The translations under genes were made by a program, and so were the position numbers. Source: a virus. From it: a stretch of DNA of 51,108 bases. Numbering within the stretch: the stretch's first letter is position 1; every line of letters begins with the position of its first letter. Under the pieces are notes generated by a model that was not told where the DNA came from, did no database searches, and saw nothing but the letters and a program-made list of their open reading frames with translations. Of this stretch, positions 31,236 to 41,418 are shown piece by piece. Where the stretch lies: IMG/VR virus record IMGVR_UViG_3300021963_000179, positions 1 through 51,108 of that record. One strand, written 5' to 3'.

Positions 31236-32558
31236 TTATTGGGATAACCAAACATTATTGGATCCATAAAGACCATAACTATCACGAATTAATTTTAAAC
31301 TAGTTACTAATTGTCCACCCTCAAAATGATGACGAAGCTCTTTGATTAAATAATTTCCGCTTTGTTCTTCGTCAATTTGCTTCTTATCGGACCTTTCGAT
31401 TCTTGGGAACTCTGCGTAAATTATATCTCCAACCTTTAATGTTGGATTACATGGTACAACCATATTTAGTGCTTGAGTAAATAATAAATTGTATCTGGAG
31501 AAAGATTTAGCCATATCGGCATTATCTCTACCTGAAGGTTCCGATAATCCAAGTTTTGGCAAAACTCCACGATCAGAAGTTCTCACTAAAACTCTTGATA
31601 CAGAATCTCCAAATTCTTTTGATACTGAAATATCATTAATACCAAGTTTATTTTGAATTTGATCTTTTAGTTTATATGTAATCGCATCTAAACGATTTTC
31701 ATAAAGATCAAAGAAATAAGTTTTATTTGAGTACATACCAACACGTAAAGACTTCATTAAATCTATATTTTTTTCAAAATTATAGTTTAGTATTTTTCTT
31801 TCATTTCCCTTTACATTTGATTCTATAACTTTTTGAGTATAAATGTACCTCTGGATGTCTTTTTTATCTGAAGAGCTAATTTCTATTTGAGTTGGAGCAA
31901 CCAAACTTTCCATACTCCTAAAATTAAATCCATCTTGATTTTCAAAAAATAAAAATCCAGCAACTCCCTTCGCTTCTGCATTATTTCCTTTTTGAGTTCC
32001 TGCTCTCTGCGTACTAGCAGGTACAGATTTTGGACATAACCAAGTTAGAATATGAAATGGTTTCTTTTGATTTCCAATAAAGACGTAAGAATTTGCTGTT
32101 TTTTCAATATTTTTTTCTTCATACTTATCCGTCATCAAAACATTGTCTAAAATATCAATAACAGTATCTTTTATATTGCCTTCATATCTTTTGAGGCATC
32201 TATTTGTTTCATTTGTCAATCCTTCTCTCGAAACTAAATGTAAAGTCAGCATTTCATTTGTACTTTCCGCCATTATATTGCCGACTTTATATACATACAT
32301 CGACTTATTTCCATCCAATTCGAATCTACCAAAAACTGTTTCTAAACTAATAGATATTCTCTCTCCCCCCCTAATTGGTAAAATATTAAAAAGTGATGAA
32401 CTATTCATCAATTGAATAGTCATAGTAACACAAGGTGATAATATATCTTCAAAATAATCCGCAAAAAGAATAGAGTTTGTTATATCAACCTTTTTTGATC
32501 CATCAAGAGTTTCAATAACCGCTTGATTAAATTTAAATCCTGTTACTGCAACTGACAT
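31236..32558 (-). CDS. 27: Baseplate hub protein, gp27-like
   Basis: 440 aa (T4 gp27 is 391). It has the order of a gp27/gpD-type tube-domain protein. An N-terminal barrel half contains ILFADYFEDILSPCVTMTIQLMNSS and ILPIRGGERISISLE. A middle insertion contains PFHILTWLCPKSVP and GFLFFENQDGFNFRSME. A second half contains LRVGMYSNKTYFFDLY, and the end contains NPTLKVGDIIYAEFP and SGNYLIKELRHHFEGGQLVTSLKLIRD, the typical closing strands. It forms the trimeric adaptor between the tail tube and the spike. Its ATG shares an A with the preceding stop (TAATG). Identity rests on pattern and position before the gp5-like gene. Confidence 0.7.
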   Translation of the reverse strand: MSVAVTGFKFNQAVIETLDGSKKVDITNSILFADYFEDILSPCVTMTIQLMNSSSLFNILPIRGGERISISLETVFGRFELDGNKSMYVYKVGNIMAESTNEMLTLHLVSREGLTNETNRCLKRYEGNIKDTVIDILDNVLMTDKYEEKNIEKTANSYVFIGNQKKPFHILTWLCPKSVPASTQRAGTQKGNNAEAKGVAGFLFFENQDGFNFRSMESLVAPTQIEISSSDKKDIQRYIYTQKVIESNVKGNERKILNYNFEKNIDLMKSLRVGMYSNKTYFFDLYENRLDAITYKLKDQIQNKLGINDISVSKEFGDSVSRVLVRTSDRGVLPKLGLSEPSGRDNADMAKSFSRYNLLFTQALNMVVPCNPTLKVGDIIYAEFPRIERSDKKQIDEEQSGNYLIKELRHHFEGGQLVTSLKLIRDSYGLYGSNNVWLSQ

Positions 32559-34333
32559 TAGCTTGAAGAAAGATTAGTTAGTAAAAATGTTTTCATAAGA
32601 CTATTTACTATTTGACCTTCCGGTGGTGGAGGAATAAACACAGTGGATCCACCATCTCCACCACCAACTGGTATAATAATTGGTTTTTGTTGTCCTCCTT
32701 GAGACCCCATCAAAATTGGCATAATGGTTGTAGTGGAAACCATCTGATTATATGAAGGATAATATTGTGGAGTTACTTTATAACTCTGAAGTTCTTGGCG
32801 ATTTACTTCTACCTGTGGAGCAACATATGATGTCTGTTGTGGTGTAGGTGCATTTAAAACTCTTTGCTCTAATTTATTAGGTTGATTAGGTAAATTTTGC
32901 CCCGACTGTATAGATGTTTGATTTGGAATTGTTTTGTTTTGTTGTGGTTTATTTTTATCTTGCATTGCCACATCTACATTTGGTGCTTCAGTTCCTTTTA
33001 TTTGTCCTTTCTTTTCTGACAAACCAGATTTTGAATTTGGATTCAAATGTCCTATCCAAGTATCAGTTCCTTGAATATAACCAGCAATTCCGCCTCTTCC
33101 ATATCCACCATAATCACTCCCAGTAGGACCAACCTGCGTAAGTGAAACAGGAACTTTCGTTCCCTTTCTCACAAAAACATCAATTGATTTTCCACTTCCA
33201 CTATGAGTATGTGCTTGTCTTGCACCCTCAACATATTGTCTTATTTCTTCATCACTATATTTTTTACCTGGAAGCAAATCAACACCAGGTTTTAAATACA
33301 CTGGAGAACCTTGTTGTAGTAATTGTTTAACAACTATTGTTGTATCTCTAACAACACTTGCTTCACTTGAACCTTGAAAGTGTCCGTGAACCCATCCAGC
33401 AGAATTTCTAACATTTCCAGTTTCACCAAACTCTGCATTTCCACTCCCATAACTTACATGACCTCCCTTTTCATCTGGTGGAGTTGGTTGTTCTTCTGGG
33501 GGAAGTTCTTCATCATAACCAGATGGTTGTTCTAATTGCTGCTGTTCCATATTTCCAAATAATCCCGCAGCAACTCCTCTTTCAAATTTCTGTATAGCAA
33601 CTTCAAATCTATCAAGAACAGAAGCAAAAGTATCCCCTTGTGAAACTAGTGCTTTTTGTTTTGACTCTTGTTCTTTTAGTCTTTGAGTTAGTTTTTCGGA
33701 AACACCTCCTTTGCCACCTGTTGCCAATTCATACGCCCTATCGCCAGTCCATCCACCAAGAAATCCACCAACAGCAGATCCTGCAACTACTCCAAATGGC
33801 CCTAAAGGTGCTCCTAAAATACCACCAATAATAGACCCAGCTAAAGATGCCCCAGCACCAGAAGCAGATTGAGTTACTGTTTCACCTTCTTGCATTCCTT
33901 GATAGAAATCAAGTCCAGTAAATAATGCATTTAAAACTCCTAATGCCTTAAATCCACCAAATCTAATATTTGGACCTTTTGGTGTAACTTTTGGTGATTT
34001 TGGATTTCCATATTTTTGAGGGCTTCCTACTTTATTATTTCCCGGGAACATACTTCCAAGGAATCCACCCAAATCTAAAGCGCCAGAAAACAAACTAGAA
34101 AGAAGACCACCGGGAGATCCAAAGGTACTCGCAATATTTAAATTTGCAAGTTCTTTGATTTTCCTTTTCTCTGGTAATTTAATTTTATCAAGTTCAATTT
34201 TTTTAAGATTTAAAACATTAATAAAATCATTATATTCGCCTATAAATCTTTTTACTGATTTATTTTGGCGAGATCCGAGAGCAACTATATTATTTGCTGC
34301 TTGAGTTAAAGGAGAATTAAGTTTAATTGTCAT
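32558..34333 (-). CDS. Large hub-block protein with possible M23-like site
   Basis: 591 aa. Residues 1-65 are helical. Residues 70-200 are Gly/Pro-rich with glycine-zipper-like hydrophobic segments (GASLAGSIIGGILGAPLGPF, VVAGSAVGGFLGG), which could insert in membrane or pack inside the tube. Residues 310-430 hold GWVHGHFQG (H316, H318), then AHTHSGSGKSIDVFVRKGTKVPV (H375, H377, D385) and WIGHL (H429). The combination resembles an M23 metallopeptidase with the HxH strand moved ahead of the H...D strand. Residues 450-590 are low-complexity Gln/Pro/Asn linker. The length is near that of T4 gp29 tape measure (590 aa), but composition differs. The enzymatic role is a hypothesis. Confidence 0.5.
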   Translation of the reverse strand: MTIKLNSPLTQAANNIVALGSRQNKSVKRFIGEYNDFINVLNLKKIELDKIKLPEKRKIKELANLNIASTFGSPGGLLSSLFSGALDLGGFLGSMFPGNNKVGSPQKYGNPKSPKVTPKGPNIRFGGFKALGVLNALFTGLDFYQGMQEGETVTQSASGAGASLAGSIIGGILGAPLGPFGVVAGSAVGGFLGGWTGDRAYELATGGKGGVSEKLTQRLKEQESKQKALVSQGDTFASVLDRFEVAIQKFERGVAAGLFGNMEQQQLEQPSGYDEELPPEEQPTPPDEKGGHVSYGSGNAEFGETGNVRNSAGWVHGHFQGSSEASVVRDTTIVVKQLLQQGSPVYLKPGVDLLPGKKYSDEEIRQYVEGARQAHTHSGSGKSIDVFVRKGTKVPVSLTQVGPTGSDYGGYGRGGIAGYIQGTDTWIGHLNPNSKSGLSEKKGQIKGTEAPNVDVAMQDKNKPQQNKTIPNQTSIQSGQNLPNQPNKLEQRVLNAPTPQQTSYVAPQVEVNRQELQSYKVTPQYYPSYNQMVSTTTIMPILMGSQGGQQKPIIIPVGGGDGGSTVFIPPPPEGQIVNSLMKTFLLTNLSSS

Positions 34334-36195
34334 TATCCATCAACCACGTTATATACGATTTTTGAGTATAATACCAAGAAATTATCAGGATTACTAGAAG
34401 GCAGTAATGGAACAGAAGGTCCATTTTTTTGAGATGGTGGAGAAGAAATTACCTGTCCTCCACCACCAGACTGCTGCTGTGTCGATGATAAATTAATTGG
34501 CAAAACATTAACACTGGATGCTACCTGTGTTGGAGGTGGTTGAGCAACAGATGCTGCTCTTTGTTGAGCAATTTGTGTTTGTGCTAGTGACACAGAAACT
34601 TGTGGTTTTGTTGATGGAACTTCAACTTGAGACAATGGTAATTGTGCTGGTATTTGTTTTTGGTTAGTAGAACCTTTAACTCTTGATTCTTGGCGTCTTC
34701 TTATGTCCTCTAAAAATTGTCTGTTTTTTCTTTCGTGTGGATTATTAGGTGTGTATCTAGACCCAACAATTGGTTTGCTATAAGCAGCTCTTTCAAATTC
34801 ATTATAAAAAAGACTTGCAGCATCTTCTGGTGTTTTTGCTGCTTTCATTCTTTCTAAAGTTCCAAGTTGTTGTGCTTCTATTAAACCATACTGCAATTGA
34901 GCTTGATGGCTCATCGGATCAAGATTTTTGGATTTTGCCCATTCTTTAAATCTTGCTTCTCTATTTTTATCCAATTGAAACATTCCAAAATAACCACCTT
35001 CTGGTGCATTGGTTCTATATCCACTTTCCCTCATTGCATTGGACAACATGCCGTAAGCAACATTTTCTCCATAATTTTTTTTAAGATAATCAAACATTTG
35101 AGATTCAATTTGTTGCTGATTTCCACTTATCTCACCAGTTGGTGGAGGGGTAGGTCCTCCACCAGAACTAGGTTTAGTCTTTGGAGATCCAGAAGGAGAT
35201 CCACCAGAACTAGTTACAGTTACATTTTCTTCTTTCTTCTTACCAACAAGAGCATCAAGAATATTTGAAAATCTATCGACTACTGCACCAAATCTATCGA
35301 CTAAATTTTGAGGAATGTCTGTCTGCACTTGCTGCGGTTGTACCTGCTCTGAGTCTGCAAGAGCATTAACCACTGCTCCACCGCCTAGTCCTGCTGCTCC
35401 AAGTCCAAGAGCCCCAAGTCCAAGCATTTTCCCTCTACCCATTCCCTTCATTGCAGGAGCACCTGCTTTCTTCAATGGGGAACCAGGAACATTAACATCA
35501 AGATTCAATCCACCTCCAGAGGGAGTTGCCCTTGGAAGATTGGAAAGTTGATTTACAATTTTTAGAATTACTTGACGAACTAATTTTGCAACTTCAAAGC
35601 TTTCATTAAAACTAGTTTTTAACGCTACTAAATTTGATTTTAATCTATCTACATTTTTTTGATTTCCAAAAAATTGAATAAATTCTAAAGCGTTTCGATA
35701 TACTTTTAAAAATCTATCTAATACTTGTGATGGTTTATTTTCTTCAATATTTCTTATTTTCTGTGCATAATCATTACTAAAGTCACCAATGACTTTTTGT
35801 ATTGATTGATTAATTCTATTTTGAACTACTTGAACTATATTTTGCAATTGAGTTACTGGACCTGTAGATCTAACGTTCTGAATCTCATTAGATAATCTTT
35901 CAGTAACATTTGTTATTTTATTATCTACATTATTATTAATAATTTGCGTAGAATTTTTAATCGAATTATCAACAGAAGATAAAATATTATTAGTAATTGA
36001 ACTAATAATATAATTAATATCTGGAGTAACTGGTCTTACTTCTGCTCTCTGAAATCCTACTATTTTATTTGATGCAGACTGAACAAGAGAAGATCCTATT
36101 GGAGATCCACCAGAAATAAAATTCTGGGCATCTTGAATAGTTCCTCTTGGAGATCTTGCTATTTTTTCTGGAGATAAGAGCGAACTAACTGCCAT
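34333..36195 (-). CDS. Hub/tape-measure candidate with lysozyme-like domain
   Basis: 620 aa. Residues 55-225 are helix-rich (IISSITNNILSSVDNSIKNS, VQNRINQSIQKVIGDFSNDY). A Gly/Ala-rich hydrophobic stretch follows (LGLGALGLGAAGLGGGAVV, residues 258-276). Residues about 360-465 form a phage-tail-lysozyme-type domain: NVAYGMLSNAMRESGYRTNA with E390 as the likely catalytic Glu, then GGYFGMFQLDKNREARF and HQAQLQYGLIE. The rest is Gln/Ser/Pro-rich. Such domains in tail proteins locally open the peptidoglycan during DNA injection. It follows directly the gp26-like gene with the frameshift signal, the place of tape-measure genes in other phages. That identity is inference. Confidence 0.6.
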   Translation of the reverse strand: MAVSSLLSPEKIARSPRGTIQDAQNFISGGSPIGSSLVQSASNKIVGFQRAEVRPVTPDINYIISSITNNILSSVDNSIKNSTQIINNNVDNKITNVTERLSNEIQNVRSTGPVTQLQNIVQVVQNRINQSIQKVIGDFSNDYAQKIRNIEENKPSQVLDRFLKVYRNALEFIQFFGNQKNVDRLKSNLVALKTSFNESFEVAKLVRQVILKIVNQLSNLPRATPSGGGLNLDVNVPGSPLKKAGAPAMKGMGRGKMLGLGALGLGAAGLGGGAVVNALADSEQVQPQQVQTDIPQNLVDRFGAVVDRFSNILDALVGKKKEENVTVTSSGGSPSGSPKTKPSSGGGPTPPPTGEISGNQQQIESQMFDYLKKNYGENVAYGMLSNAMRESGYRTNAPEGGYFGMFQLDKNREARFKEWAKSKNLDPMSHQAQLQYGLIEAQQLGTLERMKAAKTPEDAASLFYNEFERAAYSKPIVGSRYTPNNPHERKNRQFLEDIRRRQESRVKGSTNQKQIPAQLPLSQVEVPSTKPQVSVSLAQTQIAQQRAASVAQPPPTQVASSVNVLPINLSSTQQQSGGGGQVISSPPSQKNGPSVPLLPSSNPDNFLVLYSKIVYNVVDG

Positions 36196-36352
36196 TTTGT
36201 TGGTGTTTTAATTTTTCTTCTTCAATATGTTGCTGTAGAAGTGCCAAATATATATCTCTTTCCCACGGGATCATATTTTCAATCTCGGTCAAAGAATATT
36301 TATGAAACTGCATTAATGCAAAATTAATTCTAAAATACGACTCAAGATCCAT
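36185..36352 (-). CDS. 55-aa ORF, probable -1 frameshift extension of gp26-like protein
   Basis: The ORF reads MDLESYFRINFALMQFHKYS, then LTEIENMIPWERDIYLALLQ and a charged tail. The ATG at 36352 is 11 nt past the upstream stop and has no Shine-Dalgarno match. The frame is open upstream to the slippery site at 36376-36370, so a -1 shift would give a fusion of 241 + 6 + 55 = 302 residues. The sequence resembles the small helical T-domain of tail-assembly chaperones (N-terminal YFRINFALMQFHKYSLTEIENMIPWERD-like segments are typical of short ORFs between chaperone and tape measure). Its end overlaps the start of the 620-aa gene by 11 nt. Independent translation by reinitiation is the alternative. 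Confidence 0.7.
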   Translation of the reverse strand: MDLESYFRINFALMQFHKYSLTEIENMIPWERDIYLALLQQHIEEEKLKHQQNGS

Positions 36353-36363
36353 ATGAGCCACAA

Positions 36364-37092
36364 TTAACCGAAAAAACTAGTCAGTCCCTCCAACGCAACT
36401 TCATTTTCAACTCCAGTCTTTGGATTTTTAACTTTAATTGAATGTGAGAGTTTTGGCATTGTTTCAAAGAATTTTTCAATCATTTTAAATTGATTTGAAT
36501 TCATACTTTCAATAAATTCAACTAATTCTTTTTTGGTACAATCAGATGCAGACCAAGAATCCTCTTTTGAATAAATTCCTTCAATGCACGATGCAATAAT
36601 CTCAAAAGATTTATCAATATTTGATGAATTTTTATCAGAACTAAAATCAAAATTATTTTTAATAAACTGGTCCAATGAAGGATATTTCATTCTCAAAATT
36701 AGAGTTGGATCTAATTGTATATCAGTTTTATGTTCTGGGTTTTTTTGGACTTTTATCTCATCAATAAACACAGTAATTGGAACTTGGGTTTCGCCATCAT
36801 CAGAACAAGTAACTATTAATTCAATAGTTTCTCCAACAGATTTTCCTCTTACATTCAGAAAGATATATTCAATATCAAATGTTGGCAATTCATCAATTTT
36901 GATACCTTTTGTAATTACACAATCTTTTAAGACTTGCTTAATAGCATTTGTAATTTGCTTTGTGTCTTGACTCTCTAAAGCAAGAATTAATATTTTTTCT
37001 TCCTTTACTAGGAAAGGTCTATATTTAATTGTTTTTCCAGATGAAGGCAACTCAAGTTCATAAGTTGGCGTAGAAATAGAAGGTAATGGCAT
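36364..37092 (-). CDS. 26: gp26-like baseplate hub/tail-assembly-chaperone family protein
   Basis: 242 aa. It fits the T4_baseplate (gp26) family of T4-like phages: PSISTPTYELELPSSGKTIKYRPFLVKEEK at the start, ALESQDTKQITNAIKQVLKDCV, DIEYIFLNVRGKSVGETIEL, then a four-strand segment, and a C-terminal helical part (DQFIKNNFDF, MIEKFFETMPKLSHSIKVKN) closing EVALEGLTSFFG. The R-P-F-L-V-K-E-E-K and F-L-x-V-R-G-K-S motifs are the clearest. In other phages proteins in this position act as chaperones for the tape measure. The last codons carry a -1 frameshift signal. T4 nomenclature by family; the chaperone role is inferred. Confidence 0.7.
   Translation of the reverse strand: MPLPSISTPTYELELPSSGKTIKYRPFLVKEEKILILALESQDTKQITNAIKQVLKDCVITKGIKIDELPTFDIEYIFLNVRGKSVGETIELIVTCSDDGETQVPITVFIDEIKVQKNPEHKTDIQLDPTLILRMKYPSLDQFIKNNFDFSSDKNSSNIDKSFEIIASCIEGIYSKEDSWSASDCTKKELVEFIESMNSNQFKMIEKFFETMPKLSHSIKVKNPKTGVENEVALEGLTSFFG
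36370..36391 (-). promoter_or_regulatory. Programmed -1 ribosomal frameshift signal (candidate)
   Basis: The minus-strand zero frame reads TTG GAG GGA CTG ACT AGT TTT TTC GGT TAA. The heptamer T TTT TTC (36376-36370) fits X XXY YYZ. A Shine-Dalgarno-like GGAGG (36391-36387) lies exactly 10 nt upstream, the distance of the stimulator in E. coli dnaX. The zero-frame stop comes two codons after the heptamer. The -1 frame continues CGG TTA ATT GTG GCT CAT ATG into the 55-aa ORF. All four elements are seen directly; function is inferred. Confidence 0.75.
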
Positions 37093-37117: not shown

Positions 37118-37885
37118 TTAGTTTAGATCTTGAGTACCTCTATTTCTTTCGATAACATATCTTGTATATGCAAAACTTACAGTAGTTTTTGTAATAGTGC
37201 TACCTTCATATGAAAGAGGTATTGCAGTTATATTTGTTGGATACGCATCTATCATTCTATAAGTTAACGATGGAACATTTCCCACTTGTCCTCTATCTGA
37301 AAATTGAGGGTCTTTCAAAAAATTCCTTTCAAACTTTACAATAGAAATAACTCTTCTATAAGTATCAGGATACTTAAACCTAAAGAAATTTGTATTATCT
37401 TTTCCTTGCCCCTGCCCAATTGGACTACCAGCAAGTTGACCCCCAGAAGTATAAAGTGGATTAATATAATTCATCCATTCTTCAAATAATCTTATGAGTC
37501 TGTAATCATTATCTACATAAAATGTCATAGTAAAATCTGGATAAACTCTTCTTGTTGGAAAAGTTTCAACTACACCTTGCCTTGATCCAATTTCAGTAGC
37601 AGATTCAAAAGTTGCTCCTGGTAAAGATGCTTCAGCACAGTAAAAATTATAAAGTTCATTTTTTGTAGCATCATTAGTAAGTTCGAGGTCATTCAAATAA
37701 GTCATCAAAGGATCACCACCAGTAGTTAAGTGCAAAGCAACTTTAAACTGACTGCTTATTGAAAGTTTTCCAAATATGTCTAAAGCACCAGGAAGTGTTA
37801 CGCTTCCACTAGACCTGGGCGTAGTCATCTTAACGTATAGAGGACCTATTTCGGGCTTTCCTGCTCCGAAGGTTTCATTAGCCAT
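37118..37885 (-). CDS. 54: Tail-tube-fold protein, gp54/gp19-like tube initiator
   Basis: 255 aa (T4 gp54 is 320, tube gp19 is 163). It shows the gp19-type order: FKVALHLTTGGDPLMTYLND, then YNFYCAEASLPGATFESATE, RRVYPDFTMTFYVDNDYRLI, RLFEEWMNYINPLY, and after an insertion YRMIDAYPTNITAIPLSYEG and TKTTVSFAYTRYVIERN. LPG...E...G......P.R...D.T.TF.VD......LFE.WM.YI is the tail-tube signature. A single copy next to hub genes and opposite gp48 argues for the tube initiator rather than the tube subunit, hence gp54-like. It is transcribed divergently from gp4. Confidence 0.6.
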   Translation of the reverse strand: MANETFGAGKPEIGPLYVKMTTPRSSGSVTLPGALDIFGKLSISSQFKVALHLTTGGDPLMTYLNDLELTNDATKNELYNFYCAEASLPGATFESATEIGSRQGVVETFPTRRVYPDFTMTFYVDNDYRLIRLFEEWMNYINPLYTSGGQLAGSPIGQGQGKDNTNFFRFKYPDTYRRVISIVKFERNFLKDPQFSDRGQVGNVPSLTYRMIDAYPTNITAIPLSYEGSTITKTTVSFAYTRYVIERNRGTQDLN

Positions 37886-40296: not shown

Positions 40297-41124
40297 ATGT
40301 CTTATTTCAGAGAACTACCAGATCTTGAATATCTTTCACAATCTCCAGATAGGAAATCTAATGGAGATTATATAAAAGTAAAAAATATCTTCAAGAGACC
40401 AAAACTTCGTGAGGATATTAAGAATGCAATAACAGCATTTAATTATTATCAAGTAGAAGATGGCGAAAGACCAGATCAAGTTGCTGAAAAATTATATAAT
40501 GATCCTTCATTAGACTGGGTAATTTTAATAACAAATAATATTACAAACATAAAAAATGACTGGCCTTTAGATACCGAATCATTTAATAATTATGTTTTAG
40601 AAAAATATGGATCTGAAGAAAATTTATATCAAGCACATCACTACGAAACAGTAGAAACTAGAGATACTTATAATAGACTAATTATTCCTGGTGGTTTATT
40701 AGTAGATCCATTAACTTCTTTTGACTTTATATCAGATCTCGGGAGAGATTATATTTTACCAGCATTCCCAGCAGACAAAGCATTAAATGTAGTAACAGTC
40801 AATTTAAATCAAGTTCTCAAAGTAGGAACAAGAACAAATGATGTAGAAATAATCATTCCAGAGGTAACAGCAACAACTTCAAATTTTTATGCATATACTA
40901 GAGACAATCAAAGTGTAAAATTAACTATAAACAATACTTATGATGGTTGGCCTGCATCGTGGAGTGGTATAAATATTGTAACAGGAAGAAGCCAATTATA
41001 TAGAATTACAATTGATGATTATATTGGACCTCTTGATGTAGAAATTCCAGATACTTTATATGAAGTTGTTGGCGAGTTCCGAAATGGAAGAATAGTACCA
41101 GTATTTAAATTCAAAGAGCAATAA
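40297..41124 (+). CDS. 53: Baseplate wedge protein, gp53
   Basis: 275 aa (T4 gp53 is 196). Diagnostic parts are SYFRELPDLEYLSQ, KVKNIFKRPKLREDI, FNYYQVEDGERPDQVAEKLY, NDPSLDWVILITNNITNIKN, DWPLDTESFNNYV. This is the family core covering residues 1-120, shared with LysM-type wedge proteins (DGxRPxxxAxxxY...WxIxxxN...DWP). The extra C-terminal ~130 residues are beta-rich (VELTVNL, IYRITIDDYIG-like) and are not in T4. gp53 joins wedges to the hub. Short gaps on both sides indicate one transcript. Confidence 0.8.
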   Translation: MSYFRELPDLEYLSQSPDRKSNGDYIKVKNIFKRPKLREDIKNAITAFNYYQVEDGERPDQVAEKLYNDPSLDWVILITNNITNIKNDWPLDTESFNNYVLEKYGSEENLYQAHHYETVETRDTYNRLIIPGGLLVDPLTSFDFISDLGRDYILPAFPADKALNVVTVNLNQVLKVGTRTNDVEIIIPEVTATTSNFYAYTRDNQSVKLTINNTYDGWPASWSGINIVTGRSQLYRITIDDYIGPLDVEIPDTLYEVVGEFRNGRIVPVFKFKEQ

Positions 41125-41133
41125 AATAAAGAA

Positions 41134-41418
41134 ATGGCAGAACCACTAGAAGGTCTAAATGTAAAGTTTTCAACCAAATCTTACGAATTAAATTACATAG
41201 ATAATGAAATAGTTTTTAGTGCTCCAAACTCCATCAAAGTAGTGACTAATTTGGCATACGAAACAAAATTAAATGATGAAAAAAGACAAATTCTTGTATT
41301 AAAACCAGAATATCTTGGTGCTTTTGTTGGAGATGTTAAGAATATGATGGTCTATGATACTTCAAGTCAATTCGTAGATAAAAAAACAAAAAGAGTTTAT
41401 AACTCTCGTCTCAAGTAA
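41134..41418 (+). CDS. Small protein at end of gp53 operon, unknown
   Basis: 94 aa with AAAGAA upstream. The sequence is mixed beta: LNVKFSTKSYELNYIDNEIV, FSAPNSIKVVTNLAY, then EKRQILVLKPEYLGAFVGDV and a Lys-rich end. No family recognised. It sits 9 nt after gp53 and is followed by a strong terminator, so it is the last gene of the late transcript starting at 37887. Confidence 0.6.
   Translation: MAEPLEGLNVKFSTKSYELNYIDNEIVFSAPNSIKVVTNLAYETKLNDEKRQILVLKPEYLGAFVGDVKNMMVYDTSSQFVDKKTKRVYNSRLK

Follow-up and report, generated by a model that had tools for sequence, protein, structure and literature searches.

The closest described systems to the locus analysed here are lambda G/GT, P2 E/E′ and the other frameshifting tail chaperones, together with the frameshift site of E. 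coli dnaX and the T4 proteins gp26 and gp51. Vladimirov, Gautam and Davidson, in the abstract of their paper, reportedly describe frameshifting as conserved across several groups of T4-like phages, and genes 26 and 51 as the pair employed by T4. Their 2022 paper (Virology 566:9–15, doi 10.1016/j.virol.2021.11.003), the title of which covers T4-like tail-assembly chaperones, is cited by PRFect (PMC10885494) for the statement that some T4-like phages, rather than frameshift, have one short gene and one long fused gene, and by PMC12846349 for poly-T slippery sequences in T4-like TAC-N genes. In T4, gp26 and gp51 are counted among the chaperones of hub assembly, and gp51 is described as essential, of unknown function, needed for assembly and absent from the particle (PMC3004832). 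In the annotation of Acinetobacter phage Konradin, both are tape measure protein assembly chaperones.

We analysed a window of 51,108 nt, positions 1 to 51,108 of the IMG/VR virus record IMGVR_UViG_3300021963_000179. The locus described below very probably gives rise, by −1 slippage, to two lengths of a single tail-assembly chaperone, a short gp26 (TAC-N) and a long gp26–extension fusion (TAC-NC), a reading built on the site, its frame, its conservation and the homology to T4 gp51, all of which are plain in the sequences. An earlier sequence-only reading of this DNA had proposed a programmed −1 frameshift joining gp26 to a small open reading frame and had held it to be new for T4-type gp26. 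The frameshift is upheld by the site, the open −1 frame and the conservation; the novelty is not, because T4-like TAC genes were reported in 2022 by Vladimirov et al., as cited in PMC10885494 and PMC12846349. The finding is therefore known in kind, and this uncultured phage is probably not among the examples of that study. Relative to the 2022 paper as its citing papers present it, what is added here is a large conservation count, clades that have no start codon, a covarying hairpin and the finding that T4 gene 26 has lost the heptamer.

Gene order and layout of the frameshift site

The gene order at the locus is that of P-SSM2, so the record belongs to a T4-like cyanophage or close kin, and marine cyanobacteria are probably the host of this T4-type virus. 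The gp26 product scores 247.5 bits against PF12322, for which the curated cut-off is 24.5, and it thus belongs to the T4 gp26 family (Table 1). Its gene lies between the tail tube gene upstream and a tape-measure-like gene downstream, the latter matched by a profile at an E value of 1e-5 only. This is the layout of lambda G/GT, and it agrees with the G/GT-type chaperone that had been proposed from the sequence. The accompanying proposal, that the next gene encodes the tape measure, stands as a candidate assignment: the position fits, the profile match is weak, and a similar second gene follows. The start of the 620-aa gene overlaps the −1 extension by 11 nt, and downstream of it come genes for a similar protein of 591 aa, for a phrog_350 tail protein and for a gp5-like hub lysozyme. 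Two large tape-measure-like proteins are therefore encoded in succession after the chaperone (34333–36195 and 32558–34333, minus strand), the first with the phage tail lysozyme domain PF18013.

Elsewhere in the window (40297–41418, plus strand), a gp53-like baseplate wedge gene looks split. A 275-aa open reading frame that matches phrog_232 columns 2–133 ends in TAA, and a 94-aa open reading frame that matches columns 145–210 begins three codons after this TAA in the same frame, an arrangement that may have come from a genuine split, from an insertion or from a sequencing error.

Table 1. Features of the gp26 locus, in window coordinates
Feature	Position	Strand	Evidence
Tail tube protein, directly upstream of gp26	37118..37885	-	PF23849 1.2e-16; phrog_45 2.9e-36
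gp26, predicted short form (TAC-N), 242 aa	36364..37092	-	PF12322 E=1.6e-73; phrog_150 3e-79
Shine–Dalgarno-like GGAGG, 10 nt upstream of heptamer, putative stimulator	36387..36391	-	sequence
Slippery heptamer T TTT TTC	36370..36376	-	sequence and conservation
Zero-frame stop TAA, one codon past heptamer	36364..36366	-	sequence
Likely downstream hairpin, 5′ arm TGTGGCTCA, begins 7 nt past heptamer	36354..36362	-	covariation, 62 cyanophage relatives
Likely downstream hairpin, 3′ arm TGAGTCGTA	36336..36344	-	covariation, 62 cyanophage relatives
−1 frame extension (TAC-C), FFRLIVAHMDLESYF..., last 3 bases are the stop; called separate 'gp51' in cyanophages	36185..36376	-	phrog_634 6.5e-28; phrog_150 columns 231–280 2.3e-8
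Next gene, 620 aa, candidate tape measure with tail lysozyme domain	34333..36195	-	phrog_1272 tape measure 1e-5; PF18013 2.3e-14

The 3′ end of gp26, on the minus strand, reads TTG GAG GGA CTG ACT AGT TTT TTC GGT TAA. In the −1 frame a TAG abuts the heptamer, after which the frame is open to a stop at 36185–36187. Because this TAG closes the −1 frame, a shift in this genome is possible only at the heptamer or at the single next codon. All sequence details of the sequence-only reading proved right to the base, including the 10-nt gap between GGAGG and heptamer and the predicted length of the fusion, 302 aa. The dnaX-like arrangement that it described is likewise supported: as in E. coli dnaX, a Shine–Dalgarno-like element stands 10 nt upstream of a heptamer, and a likely hairpin follows. 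However, the heptamer is U UUU UUC here and A AAA AAG in dnaX, and the frameshift product is longer than the zero-frame product, whereas that of dnaX is shorter.

Conservation of the heptamer and its flanking signals

With the window gp26 as the query, an IMG/VR scan returned 80 loci at 64–83% identity. The gp26 stop falls within 78 of these, and in all 78 T TTT TTC precedes it by one or two codons and the −1 frame continues past it. A second scan, with gp26 of Sinorhizobium phage phiN3 as the query, returned 78 loci, nearly all at 30–40% identity, and T TTT TTC or T TTT TTT was present in every locus with the stop in reach. The comparison among homologues that had been proposed earlier covers 105 representatives dereplicated at 90% identity, which reach down to about 25–30% identity. 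A U UUU UUY/A heptamer is present in 103 of them (94 TTTTTTC, 8 TTTTTTT and 1 TTTTTTA), and the two that lack it are Ackermannviridae-like Vibrio phages. Named phages with the heptamer are Cr30, phiN3, RHph_I1_18 (TTTTTTA), BUCT608, Ah1, PhiW-14, V05, D486 and P-SSM2, and the homologues with it include those of T4-likes of Caulobacter, Sinorhizobium, Rhizobium, Stenotrophomonas, Aeromonas, Delftia and Vibrio. The codon ahead of the heptamer ends in T in 103 of 103 cases, through eight codons for seven residues (S as AGT or TCT, N, D, A, G, H and T), and the first phenylalanine of the heptamer is always TTT, whereas TTT accounts for only 67% of the phenylalanine codons in the rest of the gene. 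The naive product of these codon choices, about 1e-42, ignores shared ancestry and is a guide only. In complete cases, the −1 frame runs 140–215 nt beyond the stop. On this conservation, the heptamer is not a chance occurrence and the frameshift signal is real and ancient.

In 76 of the 103 representatives, a Shine–Dalgarno-like motif occurs no more than 18 nt ahead of the heptamer. The LEGL residues encoded over this region are conserved too, so the conservation of the motif is partly a protein constraint. Downstream of the heptamer, a hairpin is likely in the cyanophage clade. Among 62 cyanophage-clade sequences, the 8-bp stem ATGGCTCA / TGAGTCAT has 77.2% paired cells, compared with 70.9% in shuffles and 25–52% when slid, and shows 32 double-sided changes against 13.2 in shuffles, a count reached by 0 of 500 shuffles. 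Examples of the compensatory pairs are GGCTC/GAGTC, GGCGC/GCGTC, GGCAC/GTGTC and GTCTC/GAGGC, and a subgroup appears to have a shorter hairpin, GGTCC-ATAT-GGACC. The mean folding z is −1.55 downstream, compared with −0.25 in the upstream control. An energy-only test of the hairpin on the window sequence was not significant (z −0.56 and 0.18), and the hairpin therefore rests on covariation in the relatives. The stem is part of coding sequence and the covariation counts are raised by relatedness, so that we regard the hairpin as likely and not as proven.

The extension, T4 gp51 and competing explanations

The downstream open reading frame could start at a GTG at 36361 (58 aa) or at an ATG (55 aa). 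Neither start is preceded at normal spacing by its own ribosome site, the GGAGG being ~25 nt from the GTG, which bears out the earlier claim for the 55-aa frame. In many homologues, including most cyanophages, an ATG or GTG stands just past or overlaps the stop, which is why annotators call the extension gp51; in all public annotations examined, the extension is listed as a separate gene or missed. In Aeromonas phage Ah1 (locus L087, 3205–3384), the −1 extension is present between gp26 and the gene that follows and carries no annotation at all. By contrast with the homologues that have such a start, the −1 frame is free of ATG, GTG and TTG over the 45 nt next to the heptamer in 15 of the 103 representatives, and in several relatives the leucine codons CTC, CTA or CTG replace M at the start position. 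The zero-frame stop of RHph_I1_18 and of several marine loci comes 8–9 codons or more past the heptamer, and the −1 peptide is conserved within the overlap. The start-codon-less and long-overlap cases would need frameshifting to yield the full conserved extension, and homologues with a start codon could also produce a free extension.

In T4, genes 26 and 51 are on opposite strands, and gene 26 ends GAG TTC TTT GAG TTA CTA TAA, with the heptamer lost. T4 gp51 consists of a PF12322 domain (residues 1–201, 3.9e-52) followed in frame by the same extension (phrog_150 to column 280; phrog_634 1.2e-23), and by homology it is a paralogue of gp26 that carries the extension as an in-frame fusion. In profile comparisons, the cyanophage gp26 family matches T4-type gp51 residues 8–200 (E 8e-12) and the −1 extension matches residues 200–247 (hhalign, E 6e-10, 96.6%); the two matches are contiguous, with no gap, which places the extension at the gp51 C terminus. 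T4 gp51 therefore has the same two-domain architecture as the predicted frameshift product and is colinear with it, and, with the heptamer gone from T4 gene 26, the two T4 genes correspond to one frameshifting gene in the cyanophage-type locus. A cyanophage 'gp51' has been reported as lacking the first ~200 residues (PMC3037559). Homology indicates that this 'gp51' is merely the C-terminal domain of the long form and not a gene, which accounts for the missing residues.

The AlphaFold2 model of gp26 (pLDDT 86) places the HK97 tail assembly chaperone gp13 (2ob9) first and second among PDB chains, at an E value of 0.6 and a probability of about 0.3, which is not significant. The T4-type gp51 model (pLDDT 90) matches gp26 models in BFVD at about 1e-8; a fold search of the PDB with it gave nothing significant, 2ob9 not being among the best 50. 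A sequence search of the PDB with the gp26 profile gave no match. In contrast to lambda G/GT and P2 E/E′, the proteins of this locus are matched by no Pfam profile of a known TAC family, and the fold hint to HK97 gp13 is weak. In the extension, no known Pfam TAC domain was found, the best matches being Stealth_CR2 and DUF6760 at chance level. The DUF6760 match comes from one extension sequence (E 0.11); this family presumably occurs in bacterial contractile injection systems. Searching for DUF6760 gave no hit in the record and none in the control genomes either, an uninformative result.

The extension might instead be a separate small protein, made by termination–reinitiation at the GTG or ATG just past the gp26 stop. 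Such a route would suit the ATG found two nucleotides past the stop in most cyanophage relatives, the TGATG or TAATG overlaps in V05, D486, PhiW-14, Cr30 and BUCT608, and the public annotation described above. However, it would not need the heptamer, which is invariant, and it does not account for the homologues with no start codon, for the swaps of M for leucine codons or for the fusion of the two parts in T4 gp51; the conserved ATG, moreover, also sits within the hairpin stem. As the main route, reinitiation is rejected for the clades without a start codon, and we consider it improbable for the locus. Transcriptional slippage on the T run, which would make a fused message, is less probable again. 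Six or seven consecutive T can in principle act as a weak slippage site for polymerase, but the TTTTTTC kept in 94 of the 103 representatives, and the TTTTTTA in one, fit the X XXY YYZ ribosomal rule and not a long homopolymer, and a hairpin is conserved downstream. That the heptamer arose by chance, or that an assembly error split one gene, is barely credible, given that many independent genomes, among them those of isolates, show this split together with the heptamer. It was this conservation across isolates and metagenomes that led us to reject a fragmented gene or an assembly error.

Slippage at the heptamer, the preferred reading, does not extend to the Ackermannviridae. The sequence-only reading had held that homologues keeping both parts without the heptamer would speak against it; such homologues are found only in this family, T4 having two genes instead. 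In the Vi01 group (L191–L208) and in K351 and 207E48.1, the −1 extension is kept and looks homologous, and the canonical heptamer is absent. The junction reads GAR ATT TTC ATY TAA or CTT TTY, the former conserved in Vi01 relatives. K351 and 207E48.1 have TAATG overlaps and may make the extension by reinitiation, and the Vi01 group has no in-frame start near the extension. The mechanism in Ackermannviridae must differ from heptamer slippage. We suggest, tentatively and with more doubt than confidence, that cyanophages have a full three-part cassette of Shine–Dalgarno-like element, U UUU UUC and covarying hairpin, and that Ackermannviridae reach the long chaperone by a second route, so far undescribed, in which GAR AUU UUC AUY UAA takes the place of the canonical heptamer and, in the Vi01 group, no start is nearby.

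Predicted mechanism and meaning

We infer that slippage occurs, with an efficiency at which most ribosomes would read gp26 to its stop and yield the 242-aa short form. A fraction would pause on U UUU UUC, where both Phe-tRNAs could re-pair with UUU after slipping back by one base. Pairing of the GGAGG with 16S rRNA probably helps this slip, as probably does the hairpin about 7 nt downstream. Slipped ribosomes would stay in the −1 frame and make the 302-aa long form, with an extra C-terminal domain of ~60 aa. By analogy with lambda G/GT, we infer that the short and long forms would bind and coat the tape measure protein encoded next. In T4, the same job would be done by two genes, 26 (short) and 51 (long).

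The idea of frameshifting chaperones in T4-like phages is published, yet at the chaperone extension automated annotation has gone wrong in many T4-like genomes. For T4 gp51, these comparisons suggest a molecular role, that of the long tail-assembly chaperone.
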